DNA from: Candidatus Stygibacter australis
Lineage (GTDB): Bacteria > Cloacimonadota > Cloacimonadia > Cloacimonadales > TCS61
Assembly: GCA_030765845.1 (NCBI GenBank)
Contig: JAVCDJ010000235.1
Coordinates: 1 to 42,147, forward strand
Reading direction: 5' to 3'
Length of the DNA stretch: 42,147 nt
Positions within the stretch are counted from its first letter, which is position 1. The number at the start of each line of letters is the position of its first letter. The translations under genes were made by a program, and so were the position numbers. The notes below the pieces were generated by a model, which did no database searches, was not told the DNA's origin, and saw nothing but the letters and a program-made list of their open reading frames with translations. This document shows, in pieces, positions 4,000 through 17,588 of this stretch.

Positions 4000-6702
4000 A
4001 TGAAAAAGAAGCTGTTTTTAATTGATGGTACCGCCCTGATCTATCGGGCCTATTATGGACTTATCCGTAATCCTCTTTATACTTCTACCGGCATTAATAC
4101 CAGTGCCATGTTTGGCACTTTCAATATGTTTCTCTCTTTTTTGCAACGCTATAATCCTGAGTATATGCTGATTTCATTTGATCTGAAGGAAAAAACCTTC
4201 AGATCTAAACTTGACCCTAATTACAAAATTAACCGTCCTCCAACTCCTCCGGAAATGATTGAGCAGTTTGAGCCGATCAGGGATTTCTTCGTGTTAGCTG
4301 GTGTGAAAGAAGTGAGTATCTCAGGATATGAGGCTGATGATATTCTGGGGTCGGTTGCGGAGCAATATAAAAGTGAGTTTGATGTTGTCATCGTTACTGG
4401 AGATAAAGATTTCGCTCAGATAGTGGATGACAATATTGTACTTTTTGATCCCAAAAAAGAAATCATTATCAATCGTGAGAAGGTAATAGAAAAATATGGT
4501 GTTACTCCTGAGCAGTTTATTGAATATCTGGCAATTTGCGGTGATAGTGCTGATAATATACCTGGAGTGAAAGGTATCGGTCCCAAAGGAGCAGAAAAGC
4601 TGCTTCAGGAATTTGGTGATCTTGATAATATCTATCAACATCTGGATGATATTTCCTCAAAAAGTATCAGAACAAAGCTGATTGAACACAAGGAAGATGC
4701 TTACTTATCCCGCAAACTGGCTACCATTATCCGTGATCTGTCTCTGAATATTGATCTTAAGGATTTGAAATTCACTAATGCCAGACTTTCCCATACTATT
4801 GATTTTTTGCGGAAATATGAACTGCAATCAATAATTAATAAAGTGCAGCCGCTTGAGCAGGATATATTCAGTATGCTCGATGATGAAGCTGCTGATGAAT
4901 CTGATCCTTTTAAAGCAGTGCTGATCAATGAAAATTCTGAATTTGATAAACTTATTGATCAAATAAAAAAACAGTCAGTTATTGCTATTGATACGGAAAC
5001 CACCTCCAAAGATCCGTTATTAGCTGAGCTGGTGGGAATATCTTTATGCTGGGAAGAAAATAAGGCATATTATCTGCCTATTGGTCATCAAATGGCAGTG
5101 AATCTTGATAGAGAAATAGTGCAGGAAAAACTGCAAAATGCCCTTAAAGGTAAAATCCTGATAGCTCATAATTATAAATATGATTTTCTGGTACTCAAAT
5201 CTGCCGGCTGGCAGCTTGATAATCAAGTTTTTGATACCATGATCGCTGATTATCTGCTGCATCCATCCGATAGACATAGCCTTGATCATTGTGCCCAGAA
5301 GTATTTCTCATATAAAATGATCCCTATTTCAGATCTGATTGGTAAAGGGAAAAAACAGGTAACTTTTGACCTGGTGGGTACCAGCCAGGCTTGCCGTTAT
5401 TCTGCTGAAGATGCCTGGGTCACCTGGAGATTATATCAATTGCATTCTACAGGAATTAAGGAATCTGAACTGGATAAGCTTTATTATGATCTGGAAATTC
5501 CACTCCTGTTTACCTTAGCTGAAATGGAAAGCAAAGGTGTCTATCTGGATCAAAAGTTTTTGAAGAAACTTTCATCCCAGGTTCAGGGAACTATTGGAAA
5601 ACTTACTAAGGAAATATATGAAATTTCCGAGGTGCAATTTAATCTTAATTCCACTCAACAATTGGGCAAAATCTTATTTGATAAGCTGGAAATCCCTCCG
5701 GTGAAGAAAACTAAATCAGGTTATTCCACTGATCAAAGCGTGCTTGAAAAGCTGGCACCAGAACATGAGATTGCCCGTCTGCTCTTAGAATACAGAATGC
5801 TCAATAAACTTCTGAATACCTATATTAATGCCCTGCCTGCTCTTGTGAATCCCCTTACCGGTAGGATTCATTCTTCCTTTAATCAGACAATTGCTTCCAC
5901 GGGCAGACTTTCTTCTTCTAATCCCAATCTGCAGAATATTCCTATTCGTACTAAATTAGGTAAGGAAGTTCGCAAAGCATTTTGTGCTTCACATAAGGGT
6001 TGGTCTATAGTTTCTGCTGATTATTCGCAGATCGAGCTTAGGATCTTTGCCATATTAACTCGTGATGATACTTTGATCAAAACCTTCCAGGCTGATAAAG
6101 ATATTCACAGTAAAACTGCCAGCTTGATCTATAAAATTGCAGAGTCTGAAGTTACTCCAGAACAGAGACGTTATGCAAAAATCATTAATTTTGGCTTGTT
6201 ATATGGCATGGGTGCTTACAGAATATCAAATGAACTCTCTATCTCTCGCAAAGATGCTCAGAAATTTATTGATGACTATTTCCAGAATTTCCCTTCTGTC
6301 AGGAACTTCATCGATGTTCATCTGCTGGAAGCTGCTGAAAAGGGATATGTGGAAACTATTCTAAGACGCAAACTCTCTTTACCTGATCTGAATAGCTCAA
6401 ACAGGCAATTACGCGAAGCTGCCCAAAGAGTAGCAGTGAATATGCCTGTTCAAGGTAGTGCTGCAGATGTTATCAAAATTGCCATGAATAGACTGCATAA
6501 GTTTTTCGAAAATAGACCTGAGATAAAAATGCTCATCCAGGTTCATGATGAACTGGTATTTGAGATCAGGGATGACGTGATGGATGAGGCATTGGAAGTG
6601 ATAAAAAATACTATGGAATCTGCCATACCAGATGAGTTTAAAGGGATTGTTCCTCTGAAAGTTGAAATCGGGGTAGGATCAAACTGGTTCGAAGCGCACT
6701 AA
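4000..6702 (+). CDS. polA: DNA polymerase I
   Basis: 900-residue, three-domain DNA polymerase I. Residues 1-~290 are the 5'-3' flap exonuclease (LIDGTALIYRAYY, YEADDILGS, GDKDFAQI, SADNIPGVKGIGPKGA). Residues ~310-490 are the 3'-5' proofreading domain with its carboxylates apparently intact: D331/E333 in IDTETT, D395 in AHNYKYD and D471 in YSAEDA. Residues ~510-900 are the polymerase: motif A SADYSQIEL (D674, steric-gate E679), motif B RRYAKIINFGLLYG (K727, F731) and motif C QVHDELVF (D850). It fills Okazaki gaps and acts in excision repair. The ATG follows an AGGAG site. The stop overlaps the stop of a decayed convergent lpxK fragment on the other strand. Confidence 0.98.
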   Translation: MKKKLFLIDGTALIYRAYYGLIRNPLYTSTGINTSAMFGTFNMFLSFLQRYNPEYMLISFDLKEKTFRSKLDPNYKINRPPTPPEMIEQFEPIRDFFVLAGVKEVSISGYEADDILGSVAEQYKSEFDVVIVTGDKDFAQIVDDNIVLFDPKKEIIINREKVIEKYGVTPEQFIEYLAICGDSADNIPGVKGIGPKGAEKLLQEFGDLDNIYQHLDDISSKSIRTKLIEHKEDAYLSRKLATIIRDLSLNIDLKDLKFTNARLSHTIDFLRKYELQSIINKVQPLEQDIFSMLDDEAADESDPFKAVLINENSEFDKLIDQIKKQSVIAIDTETTSKDPLLAELVGISLCWEENKAYYLPIGHQMAVNLDREIVQEKLQNALKGKILIAHNYKYDFLVLKSAGWQLDNQVFDTMIADYLLHPSDRHSLDHCAQKYFSYKMIPISDLIGKGKKQVTFDLVGTSQACRYSAEDAWVTWRLYQLHSTGIKESELDKLYYDLEIPLLFTLAEMESKGVYLDQKFLKKLSSQVQGTIGKLTKEIYEISEVQFNLNSTQQLGKILFDKLEIPPVKKTKSGYSTDQSVLEKLAPEHEIARLLLEYRMLNKLLNTYINALPALVNPLTGRIHSSFNQTIASTGRLSSSNPNLQNIPIRTKLGKEVRKAFCASHKGWSIVSADYSQIELRIFAILTRDDTLIKTFQADKDIHSKTASLIYKIAESEVTPEQRRYAKIINFGLLYGMGAYRISNELSISRKDAQKFIDDYFQNFPSVRNFIDVHLLEAAEKGYVETILRRKLSLPDLNSSNRQLREAAQRVAVNMPVQGSAADVIKIAMNRLHKFFENRPEIKMLIQVHDELVFEIRDDVMDEALEVIKNTMESAIPDEFKGIVPLKVEIGVGSNWFEAH

Positions 6703-6726
6703 AATATATTCAGCAAATCACCATTC

Positions 6727-6746
6727 ATAAGATAAAATTCTATTCT
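6727..6746. repeat. 20-bp direct repeat, left copy
   Basis: Perfect 20-bp direct repeat (begins ATAAGATAAAA) whose partner is at 6950-6969. On the minus strand both copies encode RIEFYL of the lpxK remnant. They flank the inverted-repeat element and could be a target duplication or the product of illegitimate recombination. Confidence 0.85.
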
Positions 6747-6752
6747 TACCAG

Positions 6753-6905
6753 CCAAAACCTTGCGAATGGTGCCTGCACCTCCGCAATGGTTGATCAGAG
6801 GGAAGAAGAACATAAACAAAAGCCAATATACGATTTAGCGTTATTAGTAGCTTGCTCATATCGGTCAACCATTGCGGAGGTCTATGGACCATTCGCAAGG
6901 TTTTA
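6753..6905. repeat. Inverted-repeat element (two ~43-bp arms)
   Basis: The left arm (~6754-6796) and right arm (~6863-6905) are inverted copies of each other. Each holds two perfectly complementary 17-bp blocks (AAAACCTTGCGAATGGT and ACCTCCGCAATGGTTGA) separated by an 8-bp poorly matched stretch. The 66-nt centre has no coding potential that I can see. It can fold as a long hairpin and resembles a miniature inverted-repeat element more than a terminator, since no T-tract follows. Copies elsewhere in the genome would decide its nature. Confidence 0.7.
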
Positions 6906-6949
6906 GAAAGTCTTCTCCGAAATTGGATATTTCCGTCCATTCTCCGCTA

Positions 6950-6969
6950 ATAAGATAAAATTCTATTCT
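6950..6969. repeat. 20-bp direct repeat, right copy
   Basis: Identical to 6727-6746. It lies 44 bp beyond the right arm of the inverted repeat, while the left copy lies 6 bp beyond the left arm, so the pair is not a textbook target-site duplication directly abutting the element. Confidence 0.85.
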
Positions 6970-7041
6970 AATAACAGCAATCGGCACTGATAAAGCCAGA
7001 TGCATAAGTTTTGTATAATCCTTCTCGGTGGTTAAAATGTA

Positions 7042-7986: not shown

Positions 7987-10900
7987 ATGACAAAAGTTAG
8001 AATTAACAGAAATGAGTTTTTAGTTCTGATCTGCATGATTATGTTTACTCTGCTAAGTTATGATCTATTATGCGTTGATACATTAGGTAACCAGGATGTT
8101 ATTATTCCTGAAAAGTACAGTGCTGATGCAGAGACCATAATTACAGCGATGGAGAATACAAAACACGAAGATTCTCATCAAGAGCTGAGAGATAACCGAT
8201 TACTTAGTCCTGAATTAGTAATCATTACGACTGATGCACTGGAAACTGATTTTGAAGAGTTTGCTGAGCTCAAGACTGAAGAAGGAATAGTAACAGAAAT
8301 ATTCACATTGACAACCACGGGCACAACTTCAACTGCAATAAGAAGTTGGCTGGAAACTCGAAAAACAACATATGCAAGTTTGCAATATGTTATAATCGGA
8401 GGTAGTATTGATTTAGTTCCGGCACATCAAATAGTCTATGATCATGCAGGAAGTACCATTTCTGCATCAACTGATTTTTATTATAGTAATGTATTATCAG
8501 CCTGGCCCCAGAATGATGATATCATGGCAATAGTTACTGATATTGATCTTTATGTTGGTAGATTACCTGTACGGAATTCTGATGAAGTTGAGAATTTTAT
8601 AACTAAGTACCGGAATTATCGGACCAATTATATTGATAATACTGACAGGATGAGTTTTATATCCACTAATGTTCCTCGAGATGCATCATATGATTTATAC
8701 GATTCCTATGTAAGTGATATAATGACACATACCGGGGCTAATATTGTCAACGAATTCTTGTTATGTGAAGATTTAGTTGATATCGTTAATGGCGCCGCTA
8801 CTGAAGTAGTGAATGTGCTTCAGGACAGGGATTACTCTTTTTTATATGGAGTTTGGCATGGAGTGGATCAATTTACAATCCTGGACAGTGAGTTTGATCA
8901 TAACGATTCAGCATACTTGCAGGGTTTTGGGCCTCATATGCAATCTCTAAGCATAAATACTAATAGAGTGGAGGAAGGGAGTTGTGAATATGGGGAAGAG
9001 ATAAATGGCGAATGGCAATATTTCTACACAATTTCAGATGAATGTTACCTGCAGCTTGAAGACGTTTTACCAGAGACTTATGGGAATACATACGTTACCT
9101 GGATAGCATCCTGTAGGACAATGGATTTGAATTATGTAAGTTTTTCACAAGACTGTGCAAGAGATGAACAGGATGAGATTATCTGTAATTTGGATGAAAA
9201 TGGCTGGTCCGACTATTGGGTGAACACTGCACCTGTGACGGTCTATAATGATGAGAATTGCATAAATGAAGTATTTTTTAATCAGGTGGGAGGTCCAGTA
9301 GCAATATATGCGTCATCAACCACTGATTATCCGAGTATTTCACGATTTATAGTACAAGAATATATGGATTTACAGTTTATTGACGATGAACATACTATGG
9401 GATTTATCACTAATGAAGCCTGGAATTTATATGACAATCTATTTTCAATATATTTATACAAGTTAATATTTTTAGGTCATACATTATTCGGAGATCCAAG
9501 TATGGATGTATGGTCTGCTGAAGCCAAGCAACTTGTTCTTAGTAAAAATATCAGAGTATCTCCTGAAAGTCTATGGCCTGAATTTGAAGTTTTTGACACT
9601 CAGGGTAATCCTGTTGAAGCGCTTGTAAGTGTAATTGATGATGTAGGAGTGCTCCAGGGAAGAGGGATGTCACCTTTTCAATATAATGGCACAGTTGGTA
9701 ATGACTGGGTAATATCAGCCAACAAGGCAAATTACGTTCATGATATAAGGGAATACAGTTATTTGAAGACTAATGATACGGTACCTTATTCGATGGGATT
9801 CGAGGACGGGCTGGATAAGAATTGGAGAGTGGAATCTGATTTGCCTTATGGCAGAATTTTAGTTACTTCCGAGAATTCACCCCATAGTGGAAATATGCAT
9901 TTGACCATGGACACAAATACAAACTATGAATATGCACACAATAGTGCTGATTTACATCTAAATCTGACAGGAGAAGACAGACTAATGCTTGATTTCTGGT
10001 GGAAGGAATTTTATGATGAAGATAATGATTATGATGGCGTGTTCATATCAGATGACAATGGAGATAACTTCACCAAAATTTATTCACTAATAAATGGCAT
10101 TGGCTGGGAAAATATAATGATCGATCTGGATGCAGCAATATACACGGCAAGATTGGAATATAATAATAACTTTATTATCAGATTCCAGCAGTATGATAAT
10201 TTTCCAATTAGTAGCGATGGATTTGCTTTTGATGATATTCAAGTCTATTCAATGTATGCTGATCTTCCCTATAGTACGGGTTTTGAATCAGGCTTGGATG
10301 GTTACTGGGATACTGAATCGAGTAATGCACATGGTTATATTGAAGTCACCTCTGAAAATATGTATCCTCATGGAGGTCAAGAAGCTCTTGTTATGGCAGG
10401 TGATGGAAGTGGAACTTATGTGTATAACAGGGCATTTTTATATTTGAACCTGGAGAATGAAACTGATGTAGAACTTGATTTCTGGTGGAATGATTACAAT
10501 GATGAATATCAGGCTGGAGATGGAATATACTTATCTAAGAATGGTGGAATGAATTTTGTAAAAGTACACAATCTTAATGGAGAAACTCATGCTAATAAAG
10601 TGTGGACAAATATTGTGCTGGATATATCAGCTATTGCAGCCAATCTTACATGGGATTTAAATTCACATTATGTGATTAAATTTCAGCATTACGATAATGA
10701 GATCATCAATGAAGATGGATTTGCCTTTGATGATATTCAAGTGTATTCATCAGCAAGAGAAAAATCTGAAGAAAATTTTGGGAATGCAGTGACAAGTTTA
10801 AAAAGCTATCCTAATCCATTTAATCCTCAAACAACCCTTTCATTTAATTTGAATGAAAACACTGAAATAAATCTCAGTGTTTATAATATCAAAGGGCAAT

Positions 10901-11061
10901 TGGTCAGGGAATTGATCAATGAACATCTTGAAGAGGGCAATCATTCAGTAATCTGGGATGGCCGTAATGCTTCAGGTAAAACAACAAGCACGGGAATATA
11001 TTTTGCCAGATTGAAAGCCCGCAATCTTGATATTACCAAGAAAATCATATTAATCAAATAA
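7987..11061 (+). CDS. Secreted C25 (gingipain-like) cysteine protease with sorting domain
   Basis: 1024 residues. The signal peptide is about residues 1-30. The peptidase C25 region spans ~60-510 and includes VIIGGSIDLVPAHQI, the catalytic His in YGVWHGVDQ (H291) and the catalytic Cys in WIASCRTMD (C376). A beta-rich linker leads into two tandem MAM/jelly-roll-like repeats, each beginning PYS-GFE-GLD and ending GFAFDDIQVYS (~599-756 and ~760-922). Residues ~938-1024 form the YPNPFNPQT...GIYFARL domain typical of type IX-like secretion/FlgD-type C-terminal tails. Start chosen at an ATG preceded by AGGAGGT. By family it is a cell-surface or secreted endopeptidase. A second C25 gene follows 23 bp downstream on the same strand, so the two are probably co-expressed. 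Specificity is not predictable. Confidence 0.88.
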   Translation: MTKVRINRNEFLVLICMIMFTLLSYDLLCVDTLGNQDVIIPEKYSADAETIITAMENTKHEDSHQELRDNRLLSPELVIITTDALETDFEEFAELKTEEGIVTEIFTLTTTGTTSTAIRSWLETRKTTYASLQYVIIGGSIDLVPAHQIVYDHAGSTISASTDFYYSNVLSAWPQNDDIMAIVTDIDLYVGRLPVRNSDEVENFITKYRNYRTNYIDNTDRMSFISTNVPRDASYDLYDSYVSDIMTHTGANIVNEFLLCEDLVDIVNGAATEVVNVLQDRDYSFLYGVWHGVDQFTILDSEFDHNDSAYLQGFGPHMQSLSINTNRVEEGSCEYGEEINGEWQYFYTISDECYLQLEDVLPETYGNTYVTWIASCRTMDLNYVSFSQDCARDEQDEIICNLDENGWSDYWVNTAPVTVYNDENCINEVFFNQVGGPVAIYASSTTDYPSISRFIVQEYMDLQFIDDEHTMGFITNEAWNLYDNLFSIYLYKLIFLGHTLFGDPSMDVWSAEAKQLVLSKNIRVSPESLWPEFEVFDTQGNPVEALVSVIDDVGVLQGRGMSPFQYNGTVGNDWVISANKANYVHDIREYSYLKTNDTVPYSMGFEDGLDKNWRVESDLPYGRILVTSENSPHSGNMHLTMDTNTNYEYAHNSADLHLNLTGEDRLMLDFWWKEFYDEDNDYDGVFISDDNGDNFTKIYSLINGIGWENIMIDLDAAIYTARLEYNNNFIIRFQQYDNFPISSDGFAFDDIQVYSMYADLPYSTGFESGLDGYWDTESSNAHGYIEVTSENMYPHGGQEALVMAGDGSGTYVYNRAFLYLNLENETDVELDFWWNDYNDEYQAGDGIYLSKNGGMNFVKVHNLNGETHANKVWTNIVLDISAIAANLTWDLNSHYVIKFQHYDNEIINEDGFAFDDIQVYSSAREKSEENFGNAVTSLKSYPNPFNPQTTLSFNLNENTEINLSVYNIKGQLVRELINEHLEEGNHSVIWDGRNASGKTTSTGIYFARLKARNLDITKKIILIK

Positions 11062-11084: not shown

Positions 11085-14000
11085 GTGAAGAAAAAAATAT
11101 TGGCAATGTTATTGTTGTTACCGTTATTTTTAAGTGCAATTACCAATCAGTTTCAAGTAGAAACTACTGTTGAAAAGACTATCCTGAGAATGCCTTTATA
11201 TAATTCAGAAGCGGATTCAGTATATCATCAGGTTCTGCCTGTGATAGACGGATGTGGATATAGTATAGATAATTCCATGAATTGTTCAGCAGCATTAAGC
11301 TCAGTTATGAAAATGCGGGATATGGAATTTACTGTACTAACTGTAGAACCTGAATTGGGATTAGTAAGTGGCGATACTATAAGTGTAGAATTAAGCGGCA
11401 GTAGCGAAGAGGGGATAACGTTTAATAACCCGGCAGGTTCATTTCTGAAGATGTATATCAGTATGTTTCCCGAAATGGCAGAACGTGAGAACTGGCGTGA
11501 TGTAGAACCAGCCCAGCCAAGTATTCTATATATATATCCTGATGATGCGAATGTATTGATTAATCTAAACTATCTTGTAGAATGGAAAAAACAGAAGGGA
11601 TATCTAGTAACTGTTGCTACTACAACCGAGACCGGAACAACCACGACCTCCATCAAGAATTATATCCAGAATGCTTACGATACCTGGGATGTGCCACCAG
11701 AGTATATTTGCCTGGTTGGAGATGCTAATGGCGATTACGCGATTCCCACCAACTTTTACTCACCCTTGAATGGCAATGGATCTGGAGAAGGAGACCATCA
11801 ATACACTCTGCTGGCAGGTGATGACGCTATCAGCGATGTTCATATTGGGAGATTATCTTTTAGCAGTGAAGAGGAATTGCAAATAATAGTATTCAAAACA
11901 AAAAAATATGAAAAAGAGCCATTTATAAACGATCTAAGCTGGTATAATCAAGTTCTATTAACTGGAGATCCAACTGATTCTGGCTTATCTTGTATTTATA
12001 CCTGTGTAAACATCAAAGAATTGATAAATAATAATCATCCTGAATATAGCTTTTTTGAAGTGTATGACGGCTCATTCGTACAACAAATGGAATCCTATAT
12101 TAATGGAGGAGTTAGCTTTTTCACCTACCGAGGATATAATAACATGAGTGGTTGGCAAGTTGCAACTGCGTGTACTTTATCTAATGGCTATATGATGCCT
12201 TTTGTAGTTATACCTACTTGTGATACTGGAAGTTTTTTTGATGACAATAATTGCCGTAGTGAATCATTCCTTCGAGCCGGATCTAACACACTTCCGCAAG
12301 GAGGAATCGGAGCTATAGGGACAGCAACAACTGAGACAAATACTTGTTTCAATAACTGTTTTGCTCAGGGAGTTGCTTATGGATTATATGCAGAGGATTT
12401 AAAAACTATGGGAGCTGCACATACAAGAGGAAAAGTTTCATTGTGGGAGGGTTATCCTGACAATCCAGATAATCAAACTGAAAAATTTAATTGCTGGAAT
12501 AACTTGATGGGTGACCCTTCTGTAGAAATCTGGATTGGTGAACCACTAAATCTTGTGGTTGAAAGCGAAGTGGATTACTCAAGTAATCAAAATGGTATAA
12601 TAATTTGTGCGGAAAACGACAATAACTACCCAGTAGAAGGTTTATATGCATGTCTTTATAATGAGCCCAATGATGAACAATATTTTTGTTTCACTGATGA
12701 AAACGGAAATGCTTTTTTTGATATTTCAGGATGTACATCTAATTTATTTAAACTGACGGTTAGCGGTAAAAATTATAATCCGGTACAGAGTGATATACAT
12801 CTGGTAAACCAGGAACTGGAAATAACTAATCTGACCTTTGCTAACATAGGCAATAATGAAAGTTTTGAACCAGGAGAAGAAGGAGAATTAACCTTTAATC
12901 TGTTTAATGATAGCGATGATGATATTTCACAGGTTGAAGTAACTATAGCGAGTATTTCAGATGAAATAACAATTGAAAATGGGGAAATAACGAACGTTAC
13001 GATTCCAGCGCAGCAATCAGTTCTTCTTGATGATATTATCATAAATTACCTGGGGGGGGCAGATATATCTGATTGTAGTATAAGTATCAGTATAGAATCC
13101 CTGGAATGTTCATACACAGACTCATATATTGTACCACTAACATTTCTGGAATTATCGTTATATAGTTGTGTAATTAATAATAATAATGATCCCGAACCCG
13201 GAGAAATAGTAGATTTTGATTTTGCAATAGAAAATACAGGTGATTATGAGATTAATGATATAGCTCTGGAACTAACCTGCAATAGTAACTTAATAACTAT
13301 TTCACCAAGCTCTTGTGACCCGATAGATCTGGACCCACAGGAAATTTATGAATCATTATTAGATCCTTTTTATATTGATATTGCTGATGAGTTTATTCCA
13401 GAAACGGATTCAATTTTCACCTTAACATTATCTAATGCAGCGGGATTTTGGCAGGAGATAGAAGTTATCCAGGCAATAGGAACCGCCGGGACAAGTGATC
13501 CTACAGGACCAGATGAATTTGGATATTGTATCTACGATGAAAATGATACCGGAGATCAATCGGTTAGTTATGTCTGGACTGAAATAAACACAACAACTGC
13601 TTTGCCTTTAGATCCAGAATATAATATTGGGGTAGGAGATCAAGGCACATCATGGCAGGTAAATCTTCCTTTTGATTTTCGTTTTTATGGTAAAAATTAT
13701 GATGAAATAACTATTTGCTCAAATGGCTGGGTAGCTCCTGGTTGTACGGAGAGTGTTTCTTATATGAACAGACCAATTCCCGGAGATGGAGGAGTGTCAC
13801 CAATGATAGCCGTATTCTGGGATGATCTTGTTATGAATGCAAATTCAGGAGTATATACAAGTTATCAAAATAACACACTTATTATTGAATGGGATAATCT
13901 GGAAAATGATTATGAGCAACCTGGAATAATCTATGAAGAAACCTTTCAACTAATCATCTATGACAGAGCTGAGCGTTCCACTTCCAATGGAAATAATGAA

Positions 14001-16178
14001 ATGAAGTTTCAGTATAATACATTTAATAATGTCAATGCTGGCTCCTATAGTGGTGGTAGTGCGGAACATGGTTTATATTCAACAATTGGGATCGAAGACC
14101 AGACAGGAACAATAGGAGTTCAATATTCATTTAATAATGAATATTTTGATACAGGAACCCAACTTGATAATCATACTGCTATACTGATCAGTGGAGTTAC
14201 TATACCTGCAAATTCCTGCTGGCTGGTAATGGAAGATTTGCATTACAACCAATCAGAGGAAGTTGTTCTACCAGGTACAACAATCAATCTTACTATTGAT
14301 TTAAAGAATTTAGGTAGTGTAGCCACCGGGGATATTTCTATTACTTTGTCATGTGATCATGAAGAATATGTTGAACTGACAACCAGCGAATATACAGCTT
14401 CTACAATAGCTTCAGGAAATACGGCAGTAATAACCGAACTTTCATTCGATGTTAGTGAGAATTTTCCACTAATGGAAACGTTAAGATTTAATCTTAATTT
14501 CCAATGTAATGGAATGAGTTGGGATTATATTTCAATTCCGGATATCACAGCATCCTCAATTAATATTTCTGAAAGCATTATTGATTACGGAGAAGTTTTC
14601 CGTAATTATGAGAAAGAGTATGTTTTGGAGATTGGAAATATTGGGGCAGTAGATTTGGAACTCACAGATATTTATTTAGACTGTACTGGGCTTCAAAGTG
14701 ATTTTGAACCTCAAACCATTGCACCAGGAGAAACTACAGAACTGTTACTCACTTATGAAAGCGAAGAATACGGAGAAATTGAGGGATCAATAACAATATC
14801 TAGCAATTCTGTAATTAATGATGAGTATGAAATTCAAGTAATCGGTACTGTTGTAGATCCTCCTGAAATTGAAGTACAAGAAATCACAGATTTTTCCGTA
14901 CTAATTGATGAACTTACAGATATCCCAATCTGTATCAGTAATGTCGGTCTGGCAAATTTTGATTTTTCAGCTCATTTGGAGGGTATTTATAATTATTGTG
15001 CAGATTTCAACAATGGATATTTGCAACTTAACCAATGTTTACTCACTGATGATGATTTTACCATAGAAGCCTGGGTAAGAGTTGATGGTGCCGCATACGG
15101 TGATCATGCAACTAATACTCTATATGAGCAGAGAAAAAATACTGCAACTGGAGGATATGGTGCAGTAATCTGCTTTTTTGTCAGAACAGCTAATGGTGAG
15201 ACTAAATTCATTATTAAGGGATCTTATAGTTCCGGTACCGTACTGACTGTTACCTCTGCCCCTGATTTGGGAGGATGGCACCATTATGCTGCTACGGTAA
15301 ATGATGACGATATTTATCTATATATTGATGGTGAAGTAAAAGCTCATGCAGAAAATGATGAGAGTGGTGACTATATTGCTGGAGTAGTGAATAAAGATCT
15401 GGGTGCTCATCGGTATTATCATGACGTTGATCAGGAATCCTTCTTGAATGGTGCAATGGATGAAGTACGCTTTTGGAATGATGTCCGTACTGTAGATGAA
15501 ATAAATGACAATATGTGTCAAGTTGTAGATCCCAGTGATGATGATCTGATTGCTTATTGGAGATTTGATGATACTAATAGCTGGTATGATCTGGTTCAAG
15601 GATACCCTCCCCTGAATGTAACACCGCACAACAATGTTAATTATCAAATTTCCGTGGTTCCAGGAATTTCCCTGGGAAATGATGACTTGGAGATTGTAAG
15701 TGGAGAAAGCAATGATTTAATTCTGCAAATTGATGGGTTTTTGCTGCAACCGAATCATGTATATGAAGCGAATATAATTCTGGAGGCAAATGATTATACT
15801 AACTATCCAGACATTGTATTTCCAATAACAATTACAGCAGTTGATAATGGTACGGGTACAGGAGAAGATATTATCTCTCATAACATAATAGAACAAAACT
15901 ATCCCAATCCTTTTATTGCAACTAACAATATAAGGACAGGGACAGTAATAGAATATGCCTTGCGCGATGATATAAGCAAAGCAGAAATTGCTATTTATAA
16001 TATCAAAGGACAAAAAGTGAGGAGCTATGTTTTGAATCCAGAAGAAAAGCGATGTGGAGAAATAATCTGGGATGGACGCAATAGCAGTAATGTTAAAGTA
16101 GGTACCGGTGTTTATTGTTATGGATTAAAAGCAGACGGAGTATTATCTGAATGCAGAAAAATGCTGTTGCTGCATTAG
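11085..16178 (+). CDS. Giant C25-family surface protein with LamG and sorting domains
   Basis: 1697 residues, GTG start behind CTGGAGGA. An N-terminal hydrophobic signal (LAMLLLLPLFLSA) precedes a pro-region and a C25-type domain (~150-500, starting near ILYIYPDD; LVGDANGDYAIPTNF, IGRLSFSSEEEL). The position of the usual catalytic His-Gly is YRGYNNMSGW (Y351), while the Cys is kept in PTCDTGSF (C379). Then follow a carboxypeptidase-regulatory-like segment, CARDB/Ig-like repeats and a beta domain (FRFYGKNYDEITICSNGWV). After these come an ASH/DUF1573-like domain (~1160-1255), a LamG/concanavalin-like lectin domain (~1303-1495; FTIEAWVRV, GGWHHYAATV, MDEVRFWNDVRT) and a C-terminal YPNPF sorting/FlgD-like domain (~1602-1697). 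It is probably an adhesin-protease that may be catalytically altered. A G8 tract lies in codons ~656-658. Confidence 0.85.
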   Translation: MKKKILAMLLLLPLFLSAITNQFQVETTVEKTILRMPLYNSEADSVYHQVLPVIDGCGYSIDNSMNCSAALSSVMKMRDMEFTVLTVEPELGLVSGDTISVELSGSSEEGITFNNPAGSFLKMYISMFPEMAERENWRDVEPAQPSILYIYPDDANVLINLNYLVEWKKQKGYLVTVATTTETGTTTTSIKNYIQNAYDTWDVPPEYICLVGDANGDYAIPTNFYSPLNGNGSGEGDHQYTLLAGDDAISDVHIGRLSFSSEEELQIIVFKTKKYEKEPFINDLSWYNQVLLTGDPTDSGLSCIYTCVNIKELINNNHPEYSFFEVYDGSFVQQMESYINGGVSFFTYRGYNNMSGWQVATACTLSNGYMMPFVVIPTCDTGSFFDDNNCRSESFLRAGSNTLPQGGIGAIGTATTETNTCFNNCFAQGVAYGLYAEDLKTMGAAHTRGKVSLWEGYPDNPDNQTEKFNCWNNLMGDPSVEIWIGEPLNLVVESEVDYSSNQNGIIICAENDNNYPVEGLYACLYNEPNDEQYFCFTDENGNAFFDISGCTSNLFKLTVSGKNYNPVQSDIHLVNQELEITNLTFANIGNNESFEPGEEGELTFNLFNDSDDDISQVEVTIASISDEITIENGEITNVTIPAQQSVLLDDIIINYLGGADISDCSISISIESLECSYTDSYIVPLTFLELSLYSCVINNNNDPEPGEIVDFDFAIENTGDYEINDIALELTCNSNLITISPSSCDPIDLDPQEIYESLLDPFYIDIADEFIPETDSIFTLTLSNAAGFWQEIEVIQAIGTAGTSDPTGPDEFGYCIYDENDTGDQSVSYVWTEINTTTALPLDPEYNIGVGDQGTSWQVNLPFDFRFYGKNYDEITICSNGWVAPGCTESVSYMNRPIPGDGGVSPMIAVFWDDLVMNANSGVYTSYQNNTLIIEWDNLENDYEQPGIIYEETFQLIIYDRAERSTSNGNNEMKFQYNTFNNVNAGSYSGGSAEHGLYSTIGIEDQTGTIGVQYSFNNEYFDTGTQLDNHTAILISGVTIPANSCWLVMEDLHYNQSEEVVLPGTTINLTIDLKNLGSVATGDISITLSCDHEEYVELTTSEYTASTIASGNTAVITELSFDVSENFPLMETLRFNLNFQCNGMSWDYISIPDITASSINISESIIDYGEVFRNYEKEYVLEIGNIGAVDLELTDIYLDCTGLQSDFEPQTIAPGETTELLLTYESEEYGEIEGSITISSNSVINDEYEIQVIGTVVDPPEIEVQEITDFSVLIDELTDIPICISNVGLANFDFSAHLEGIYNYCADFNNGYLQLNQCLLTDDDFTIEAWVRVDGAAYGDHATNTLYEQRKNTATGGYGAVICFFVRTANGETKFIIKGSYSSGTVLTVTSAPDLGGWHHYAATVNDDDIYLYIDGEVKAHAENDESGDYIAGVVNKDLGAHRYYHDVDQESFLNGAMDEVRFWNDVRTVDEINDNMCQVVDPSDDDLIAYWRFDDTNSWYDLVQGYPPLNVTPHNNVNYQISVVPGISLGNDDLEIVSGESNDLILQIDGFLLQPNHVYEANIILEANDYTNYPDIVFPITITAVDNGTGTGEDIISHNIIEQNYPNPFIATNNIRTGTVIEYALRDDISKAEIAIYNIKGQKVRSYVLNPEEKRCGEIIWDGRNSSNVKVGTGVYCYGLKADGVLSECRKMLLLH
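13052..13059 (+). repeat. G8 homopolymer within coding sequence
   Basis: Eight consecutive G in an AT-rich gene, read as CTG GGG GGG GCA (Leu-Gly-Gly-Ala). A one-base slip would frameshift after the C25 domain and remove the LamG and sorting domains, which is the pattern expected of a phase-variable contingency tract. Confidence 0.8.
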
Positions 16179-16547: not shown

Positions 16548-17588
16548 TTAATGAATAACAATAGATGTTACGATGGCATCATCATTGAAAAGATAAAATT
16601 CAATTCTAATAACTGCACATGGCGCTGATAAGACCAGATGCTTGAGTTTAGTATAATCCTTTTCAGTAGTTAATATATAATCTATTTGACTTCCTTCTAT
16701 CTGATTTTCCATGGTTTGTTGATCATTAGTATTGGCAAAATGATAATGATCAGGAAATTTCAGATGAAACTGCCATTCAAGATTTAAATTTGATATGGTA
16801 GTTTCCAGAGAAAGAGGATCAGCTATTCCAGAAATGATACCTAACCTTCTGGATTTTAATTCTGACACTTCTATCCTGGTTTGGTTACTAACATAAATCC
16901 CTTCAACCTGATAACTTCCCTGATGAATATCTTTATTATACTTCGGGAAAGTTTCTGGTATATCACCTTCACCATTAAAGATGATCAGATCCGCATCTTT
17001 TATTGCTGATAATGGCTCCCGCAAAATACCGGCAGGCAGCAAAAACCCATTTCCTAATGGTTTTGCTGTCTTGAAGATCACAATATCAATATCGTGCTTT
17101 ACTTTGAGATGCTGAAAGCTGTCGTCCAAAATTATCATTTCCAGATCAGGATATGCCTCGCAAAGCATCTGGATTGATTTCCAGCGGTCTTTCCCGGCAC
17201 AGACTGGAATACCTGGCAGTTTCTCTGCCAATAATTGTGCTTCATCGCCAGCTTTTTTAGCTGCAGGTAATACATTATCTCTGTCTGATATCAGGGTATT
17301 ATTATTTTCAAAATCACCTTTATATCCTCGATGAGATACTGCAATTTTTCTGCCCTGCTGCATCAATTTTTTTGCCAGCCAGATGGTGAAAGGCGTTTTT
17401 CCGCTGCCCCCAGCAGTTATATTGCCTATAGAAATGATCTTTACATCAGCCTTTTTTGCCTTATAATGATGATACCATTCTCGCCTGCAACTCTGAATCA
17501 CTTGATTAATAAGTGATAATGGATATAAAATTATTGAGAGTATTGATCTATTCAGTAAATGGTGATTAATGAAGTCCTGACGGGTCAC
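16548..17588 (-). CDS. lpxK: Tetraacyldisaccharide 4'-kinase
   Basis: 346 residues, normal for LpxK, the inner-membrane kinase that adds the 4'-phosphate to the lipid A disaccharide. Visible features are an N-terminal amphipathic/membrane-associated segment (~15-30) and the P-loop SIGNITAGGSGKTPFTIWL (~53-71). The family motifs SHRGYKG, GDEAQLLA, DDSFQHLKVKHDIDIVI and LLPAGILREPLS also appear, with the C-terminal TTEKDYTKLKHL box. The GTG start overlaps the cobO stop by one base (TAGTG), so the two are translationally coupled. Its presence shows an outer membrane with lipid A. A decayed copy of its last ~40 codons lies at 6699-7041. Confidence 0.95.
   Translation of the reverse strand: MTRQDFINHHLLNRSILSIILYPLSLINQVIQSCRREWYHHYKAKKADVKIISIGNITAGGSGKTPFTIWLAKKLMQQGRKIAVSHRGYKGDFENNNTLISDRDNVLPAAKKAGDEAQLLAEKLPGIPVCAGKDRWKSIQMLCEAYPDLEMIILDDSFQHLKVKHDIDIVIFKTAKPLGNGFLLPAGILREPLSAIKDADLIIFNGEGDIPETFPKYNKDIHQGSYQVEGIYVSNQTRIEVSELKSRRLGIISGIADPLSLETTISNLNLEWQFHLKFPDHYHFANTNDQQTMENQIEGSQIDYILTTEKDYTKLKHLVLSAPCAVIRIEFYLFNDDAIVTSIVIH

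Follow-up and report, generated by a model that had tools for sequence, protein, structure and literature searches.

A probable REPIN-like pair of inverted hairpins downstream of polA in Candidatus Stygibacter australis

Introduction

A short and strongly palindromic element is found downstream of polA in the genome of Candidatus Stygibacter australis, in a stretch derived from lpxK. What kind of element is it, and how did it come to this place? It lies in a contig of 42,147 bp, the whole length of which is called the window here. The first-pass annotation described two arms around a non-coding core and offered either a miniature inverted-repeat or other non-autonomous mobile element, or a structured RNA.

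A REPIN is a doublet of REP sequences forming a hairpin, as described in the account of Bertels and Rainey (2011, PMC3116915). We consider it likely that the window element is REPIN-like, consisting of two inverted copies of one REP-like hairpin about 72 bp apart, with mobility of the type driven by a RAYT (REP-associated tyrosine transposase). Observed directly are the anatomy and the number of copies, a position outside open reading frames (ORFs), covariation within the hairpin and, in relatives, the flanking of some RAYT genes by the same hairpins. The many copies, unrelated flanks and empty sites support a non-autonomous mobile element, but it is not a MITE in the usual sense. The two arms are REP-like hairpins in their own right, which are also found alone and in arrays in other genera and, in some, beside RAYT genes; they are not the terminal inverted repeats on which a DDE transposase acts.

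Anatomy of the window copy

Both block pairs reported at first pass are present, with their hinges and distances as claimed. Positions 6755-6771 are complementary to 6888-6904 and positions 6778-6794 to 6865-6881, each perfectly over 17 bp, and the hinges at 6772-6777 and 6882-6887 stay unpaired. Folded as single-stranded DNA, the segment 6740-6915 reaches -41.6 kcal/mol, compared with -16.2 +/- 3.1 kcal/mol for 200 shuffles (z -8.3), none of which equals it. A mechanical frame of 64 amino acids on the minus strand (6746-6940) covers the element, and nothing marks this frame as a gene. No tRNA was found in the window. The features are collected in Table 1. Both window arms are among the 41 arms from which the covariance model of the arm (R1) was built.

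Table 1. Features of the window copy and its insertion site, and RAYT genes flanked by arms in relatives
Feature	Position or gene	Strand	Remarks
Left REP-like hairpin (arm)	6755-6793	+	R1 match 58.8 bits; loop 6773-6776
Core between arms	6794-6865		alignable to other copies; mean pairwise identity 0.55 vs ~0.80 for the arms
Right REP-like hairpin (arm), inverted	6866-6904	-	R1 match 64.1 bits
Right tail	6905-6949		first ~10 bp resemble other copies; remainder without match in the own genome (E up to 0.001)
Inserted stretch, 203 bp	6747-6949		not present at the end of the lpxK paralogue or downstream of polA in G001/G002
Direct repeat, left copy, 20 bp, target-derived (end of lpxK 3' fragment)	6727-6746		exact repeat ATAAGATAAAATTCTATTCT
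Direct repeat, right copy, 20 bp	6950-6969		exact repeat ATAAGATAAAATTCTATTCT
Duplicated lpxK 3' fragment, insertion target	6952-7041	-	74/90 bp (82%) identical to intact lpxK
Intact lpxK, paralogue of the target, naturally without interruption	16584-17537	-	identified within the window
Arm-flanked subtype RAYTs (1)	G034:C340, G024:C13, G021:C129 (at 14869), G034:C34, G015:C58
Arm-flanked subtype RAYTs (2)	G030:C135, G023:C25, G034:C85, G021:C164, G027:C175

The arm as structured unit

Each arm is by itself an imperfect hairpin of about 35 nt with small bulges, ACC.TTGCG..ATGGT[loop]ACC.TYCGCAA.TGGT, and it is the face-to-face arrangement of two copies of this one hairpin that produces the long arm-to-arm palindrome of the first-pass annotation. 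In a MAFFT alignment of 41 arms, chosen by hand from several genomes, 95% of the cells pair. Both sides of a pair are changed in 27 cells, where shuffles give 11.3 and none of 500 reaches 27, while the number of pairs with such two-sided change is ordinary (3 vs 2.5; 246 of 500). The 64 arms of the own genome, 61 of them distinct, give 60 two-sided-change cells vs 19.5 in shuffles (0/500 as high), spread over 7 pairs vs 3.2 (1/500), in an alignment that was fitted to the structure and is biased towards it. The pair closing the loop is C-G in 24, G-C in 21 and U-A in 9 of the own-genome arms. At one site in the stem, close to the inner bulge, 35 of 61 arms have no pairing.

Compensatory change, which the first-pass annotation had expected between diverging arms, is thus seen inside each arm, but none is demonstrated between the two arms of one copy. 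The arm similarity within a copy is 0.833 and between copies 0.822, and 705 of 5000 permutations are as high; this comparison used 19 copies, 4 of 23 having been left out for long inserts or gaps. Since the arms of one copy are no more alike than those of different copies, the long hairpin is not demonstrated as a selected structure. It is the single arm, then, that forms the structured unit.

Most arms have a 14-6-14 layout, in which two half-sites enclose a short centre, and this would also suit a site for site-specific recombination of the dif or attC kind. We regard such a site as extremely improbable, as the centre varies like a loop, with a compensating closing pair, and varies in length as well.

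A GT[AG]G foot 5' of the hairpin is found in none of the 64 arms, and therefore the arm is not classed as a canonical GTAG REP. A CGTC tag, searched on the 5' side, is likewise found in 0 of 64. The motif C[CT][AG]A stands before the stem in 50 of the 64 arms and, by analogy, could serve as a guide.

Copies in the own genome

The first-pass annotation had proposed to look for the arm blocks in this genome and its relatives, and for copies with the same arms in variable flanks. Both are found: the element is multicopy in its own genome rather than single, with similar arms in unrelated flanks, and relatives have matches too. Searching the own genome (3.8 Mb in 278 contigs) at the DNA level yielded 83 matching pieces. 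The 24 paired copies align over the arms, the core and about 10-25 bp outside, beyond which the flanks are unrelated. Among 23 of them (L018 was left out) the mean pairwise identity is 0.81 and 0.78 in the arms and 0.55 in the core; outside the arms it is 0.59 in the adjacent DNA and 0.32-0.34 farther out. The REPs are therefore more conserved than the spacer, as in REPINs.

At a threshold of E 0.01, R1 gives 112 matches in the own genome, with 150 of 1422 candidates scored and one site (C64) counted on both strands. When C64 is excluded, 27 of 32 neighbouring pairs less than 300 bp apart are inverted like the window copy, and in 18 of these 27 the gap is 68-74 bp.

In the gene-context count, from which L018, L029, L041, L043 and some additional single arms were left out, none of 36 places has its midpoint within an ORF of at least 100 amino acids, compared with 77% of random places. 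This placement, the strong covarying hairpins and a start about 45 bp after polA could point to a cis-acting structured RNA or terminator, non-mobile and selected near gene ends. Such a role is very improbable in our view. Rfam, searched at gathering scores, has no match for the element, which leaves the structured RNA suggested at first pass without a counterpart there. The 33 places that could be classified comprise 23 tandem, 7 divergent and 3 convergent gene arrangements and show no clear orientation bias; they track the intergenic background of 67, 23 and 11%, estimated from crude ORF calls. Furthermore, the element is absent after polA in the congeners G001 and G002, and arms are linked to RAYT genes.

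MITE ends beside the arms

A second type of mobile sequence is found in the same genome. The pattern GAGACTGTTCAA occurs exactly 29 times in it and the reversed pattern 0 times. Eleven candidate MITE elements were inspected, and in four of them (L098, L092, L097 and L090, 329-334 bp) the interior is free of arms and the target is duplicated over 8 bp. The right-hand 110 bp of these four match the right-hand ends of the arm-bearing L013, L024, L025 or L026 at 74-90% over 29-102 bp, with the exception of one 14-bp exact piece. The motif GACTGTTCAAT, with 2 mismatches allowed, lies within 40 bp outside 21 of the 64 arms, compared with 47 of 7800 random 40-mers. From these shared right ends and neighbouring motifs, we infer that part of the arm population of this genome is joined to a MITE family; its ends and duplications suggest that this family is of the DDE type. 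Together with L087, the same four elements form a family with GAGACTGTTCAAT ends, which has 8-bp duplications in 4 of 5 members and several other palindromes inside.

It could then be argued that the window element itself is a classical MITE, in which the terminal inverted repeats GAGACTGTTCAAT are the substrate of a DDE transposase and the palindromic arms are carried along. In addition to the ends and duplications above, the flanking repeats of L013 (10 bp) and L021 (11 bp) lie at or near MITE ends, and repeats of such length are rare between mismatched flanks (at least 11 bp in 6 of 552 pairs). However, repeats of 9-10 bp are common by chance: at least 9 bp is reached in 133 of 552 mismatched pairs, which is the chance rate for the 8 of 24 paired copies with such repeats (20 bp in the window copy, 9-12 bp in the others). 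L024, L025 and L026, which have arms and both MITE ends, show no matching flanks. No GAGACTGTTCAA is found in 6700-6960, and the left end of the window copy has only a weak resemblance to TTCTATTCT; 43 of 64 arms have no motif nearby. Conservation is highest in the arms and not at the outer ends, and in other genera the arms stand as singles or in arrays, some of them adjoining RAYTs. On balance we think a classical MITE unlikely.

A transposase within MITE ends was looked for by reading the ORFs next to 14 single ends by eye, and only L095 has an apparent fragment nearby; this fragment carries a DUF772 domain, and a second end is missing. By eye, the core of L012 seems to be flipped with respect to the ends, as recombination between the arms would produce.

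Distribution across genomes

With strict filters, R1 matches are found in 31 of 59 genomes (own genome included) and in 15 of 38 genera. In an exact-pattern scan of species genomes, 79 of the 80 matches listed are in records titled Cloacimonadota, Cloacimonetes, Candidatus Stygibacter, Tenebribacter or Zophobacter, the last three of which belong to Cloacimonadota according to NCBI. The other one among these 80 (L208, 1418-1448) is in a record titled Armatimonadota, perhaps by a binning error or by transfer. Viral contigs have 0 exact matches to the arm pattern. Arms in other genera also occur singly or in arrays, the latter in G015 and G045. In G007, two arms (L074, 1653-1692 and 4925-4962) are followed by a T run, which makes them look like an intrinsic terminator. 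Among the papers listed by a literature search with incomplete journal coverage, none was recognised as treating REPs in Cloacimonadota.

RAYT genes in relatives and in the own genome

Under the REPIN-like reading, a RAYT, a single-tyrosine HuH endonuclease, would recognise the hairpin in its folded state, together with a short unpaired foot, in single-stranded DNA, and would copy or move the doublet into new sites. Y1_Tnp genes are present in 44 of the 59 genomes. A subtype was delimited with an alignment of seven rows (A1), and 30 genes reach at least 200 bits. An R1 match (E up to 1e-3) lies within 500 bp of 10 of these 30 RAYT genes, as counted by hand from the coordinates, and on both sides in 7 of them (Table 1). 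G023:C25 has a clear layout with hairpins on both sides of the gene; in G024:C13 the arms are on one side only. The first-pass annotation had suggested looking for a transposase with similar ends. Such genes are thus found in relatives, but none is arm-flanked in the own genome.

Among 34 control loci one is arm-flanked, made up of 1 of the 22 best-scoring Y1_Tnp loci (L123, of L105-L126) and 0 of 12 lower A1 loci (L166-L177). The difference between 10/30 and 1/34 gives a Fisher p of 0.0014, a value that is too good because related genomes are not independent and the A1 rows were partly chosen by their arms, 4 of 7 (L144, L143, L067, L070) having been picked after arms were noticed beside them. 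The other 20 of the 30 subtype genes have no arm within 500 bp; some have other repeats, and a few are at contig ends. Two broken RAYTs below 200 bits (G045:C272 and G030:C22) have arms on both sides, and at L137, which is outside both counts, the arms are about 670 bp distant. When 33 RAYTs are placed on a tree, the 7 rows that were labelled arm-flanked at that stage require 3 changes, and none of 500 shuffles gives so low a number; the tree does not include five arm-flanked genes recognised afterwards.

Against the PDB, the best match of the A1 profile is 4er8 at 1.3e-7, which we take to be the E. coli TnpA_REP, and the next chain is 2xm3 ('transposase') at 0.026. A PDB search with one RAYT sequence gave no match. 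For four subtype proteins, REP_Tyr_transpos is the sole NCBIfam family, with 2 of the 4 exceeding the 80-bit cut-off. The subtype has the motifs NH[YF]H and YIH.NP. Several other RAYTs are flanked by different hairpins, consistent with one repeat family for each RAYT. The G001:C52 RAYT (L170) has a different hairpin, in repeated copies, on its flanks.

In the own genome, which is 95% complete, no RAYT of this subtype was found (best A1 match 43.6 bits), and at this completeness a RAYT gene could have been missed. The congeners G001 and G002 (the latter 67% complete) have none either, their best A1 matches being 158 and 136 bits. RAYT frames of other types are present in the own genome (C93, C133 and C243), among which G000:C93 is an intact frame of 247 amino acids; none of the three has arms nearby. 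Of two further Y1_Tnp genes, C170 (IS200-like by NCBIfam) and C216, the former has a weak arm match of 25 bits about 560 bp away. Two own-genome RAYTs (L128, 1414-1956, and L129, 1159-1803) are each flanked on both sides by their own different repeated hairpins.

The arm population of the own genome is thus probably an orphan. With the matching RAYT missing, it would be, probably, a decaying relic, or it may have moved lately by another route, such as homologous exchange or the MITE ends found beside a third of the arms.

Comparison with known systems

The element shares with REPINs the inverted REP pair, the less conserved spacer, the mostly non-genic placement, the many copies and, in relatives only, the flanking of RAYTs. 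It differs from them by the missing GT[AG]G foot and by a host genome in which no matching RAYT was found. The arm family probably fits the broad definition of a REPIN; its foot diverges, and the population is probably an orphan.

REPs are called species-specific in PMC6006769, whereas here one model recognises one hairpin in 15 of 38 genera. The same account ties each RAYT to its own REP family and describes REPtrons with atypical hairpins (TnpA_Y1 2.6 and 3). Like these, the RAYTs here are flanked by recurring hairpins of a non-GT[AG]G kind. The foot of class 3 is given there as CnGA, similar to the C[CT][AG]A of 50 of our 64 arms. The RAYTs differ from the TnpA_Y1 subclasses in having FE where table 1 of PMC6006769 lists a W motif. 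As judged by eye, they match no class of that table exactly and resemble part of subclass 2.1; for 2.1 the account reports that no REPs were found. PMC3733652 and PMC8049555 were also consulted.

The alternating orientation of REPs and the arrays in G015 and G045 are reminiscent of BIMEs, but the own genome has mainly single doublets, with a near-fixed spacing, and single arms. MITEs with 8-bp duplications and GAGACTGTTCAAT ends are similar in that such ends lie beside a third of the arms, and dissimilar in that the window copy has no GAGACTGTTCAAT ends.

A more far-reaching scenario is tentative, and we hold it to be doubtful though worth stating. The REP family would be specific to Cloacimonadota and have a foot, C[CT][AG]A, and RAYT lineages of its own. 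Its hairpin would have stayed near-constant over at least 15 genera, and in the genus of the window the family would have outlived its transposase through takeover by a DDE-type MITE. This would be a hybrid of single-strand and double-strand transposition. A hairpin family over many genera, in which some genomes have the RAYT and others the repeats only, allows one to ask for how long such repeats last without their enzyme. It also raises the questions of which foot is read by a non-GTAG RAYT and whether a REPIN can be taken over by a second transposase.

Insertion site

The window copy begins about 45 bp downstream of polA. The 'lpxK scar' of the first-pass annotation is only a duplicated 3' fragment, and an intact lpxK lies in the same window. 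As annotated, the arms are separated from the 20-bp repeat by 6 bp and 44 bp. Positions 6717-6746 are identical to the intact lpxK end at 26 of 30 sites. The element is absent from the end of this intact paralogue, and it is absent from the DNA downstream of polA in G002 (polA 85% identical) and G001 (76%). The left end of the element is similar to TTCAATTCT, which is also found in the intact lpxK end. The 44-bp right tail was considered as a part of the element and rejected, as it is missing from all the other copies.

The window copy landed in a stretch that had already been duplicated from lpxK, leaving a 20-bp duplication. It is the only one of 24 copies with flank repeats of at least 15 bp, compared with 0 of 552 mismatched flank pairs. 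Such a duplication does not follow from the action of a RAYT. IS200/IS605 elements produce no larger target duplication according to the account in PMC2817692, and so the window copy, with its 20 bp, may have come by microhomology or exchange. Positions 6927-6958 are similar to the DNA downstream of polA in G002 (81% over 32 bp; 11 of 2000 shuffles as good). This likeness of the tail hints at a target duplication that was possibly longer than 20 bp. The left and right stretches beyond the 20-bp repeat show no match to one another, with 674 of 2000 shuffles scoring equally well.

The lpxK 3' end is thus duplicated beside polA (6717-7041), with the intact lpxK about 9.5 kb off. Two large C25-peptidase genes lie between the fragment and the intact gene, as if inserted with a duplication. 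Their products, encoded at 7987-11061 and 11085-16178, are large Peptidase_C25 (gingipain-like) proteins, both with FlgD_ig domains, and the protein encoded at 7987-11061 has a Por secretion tail as well.
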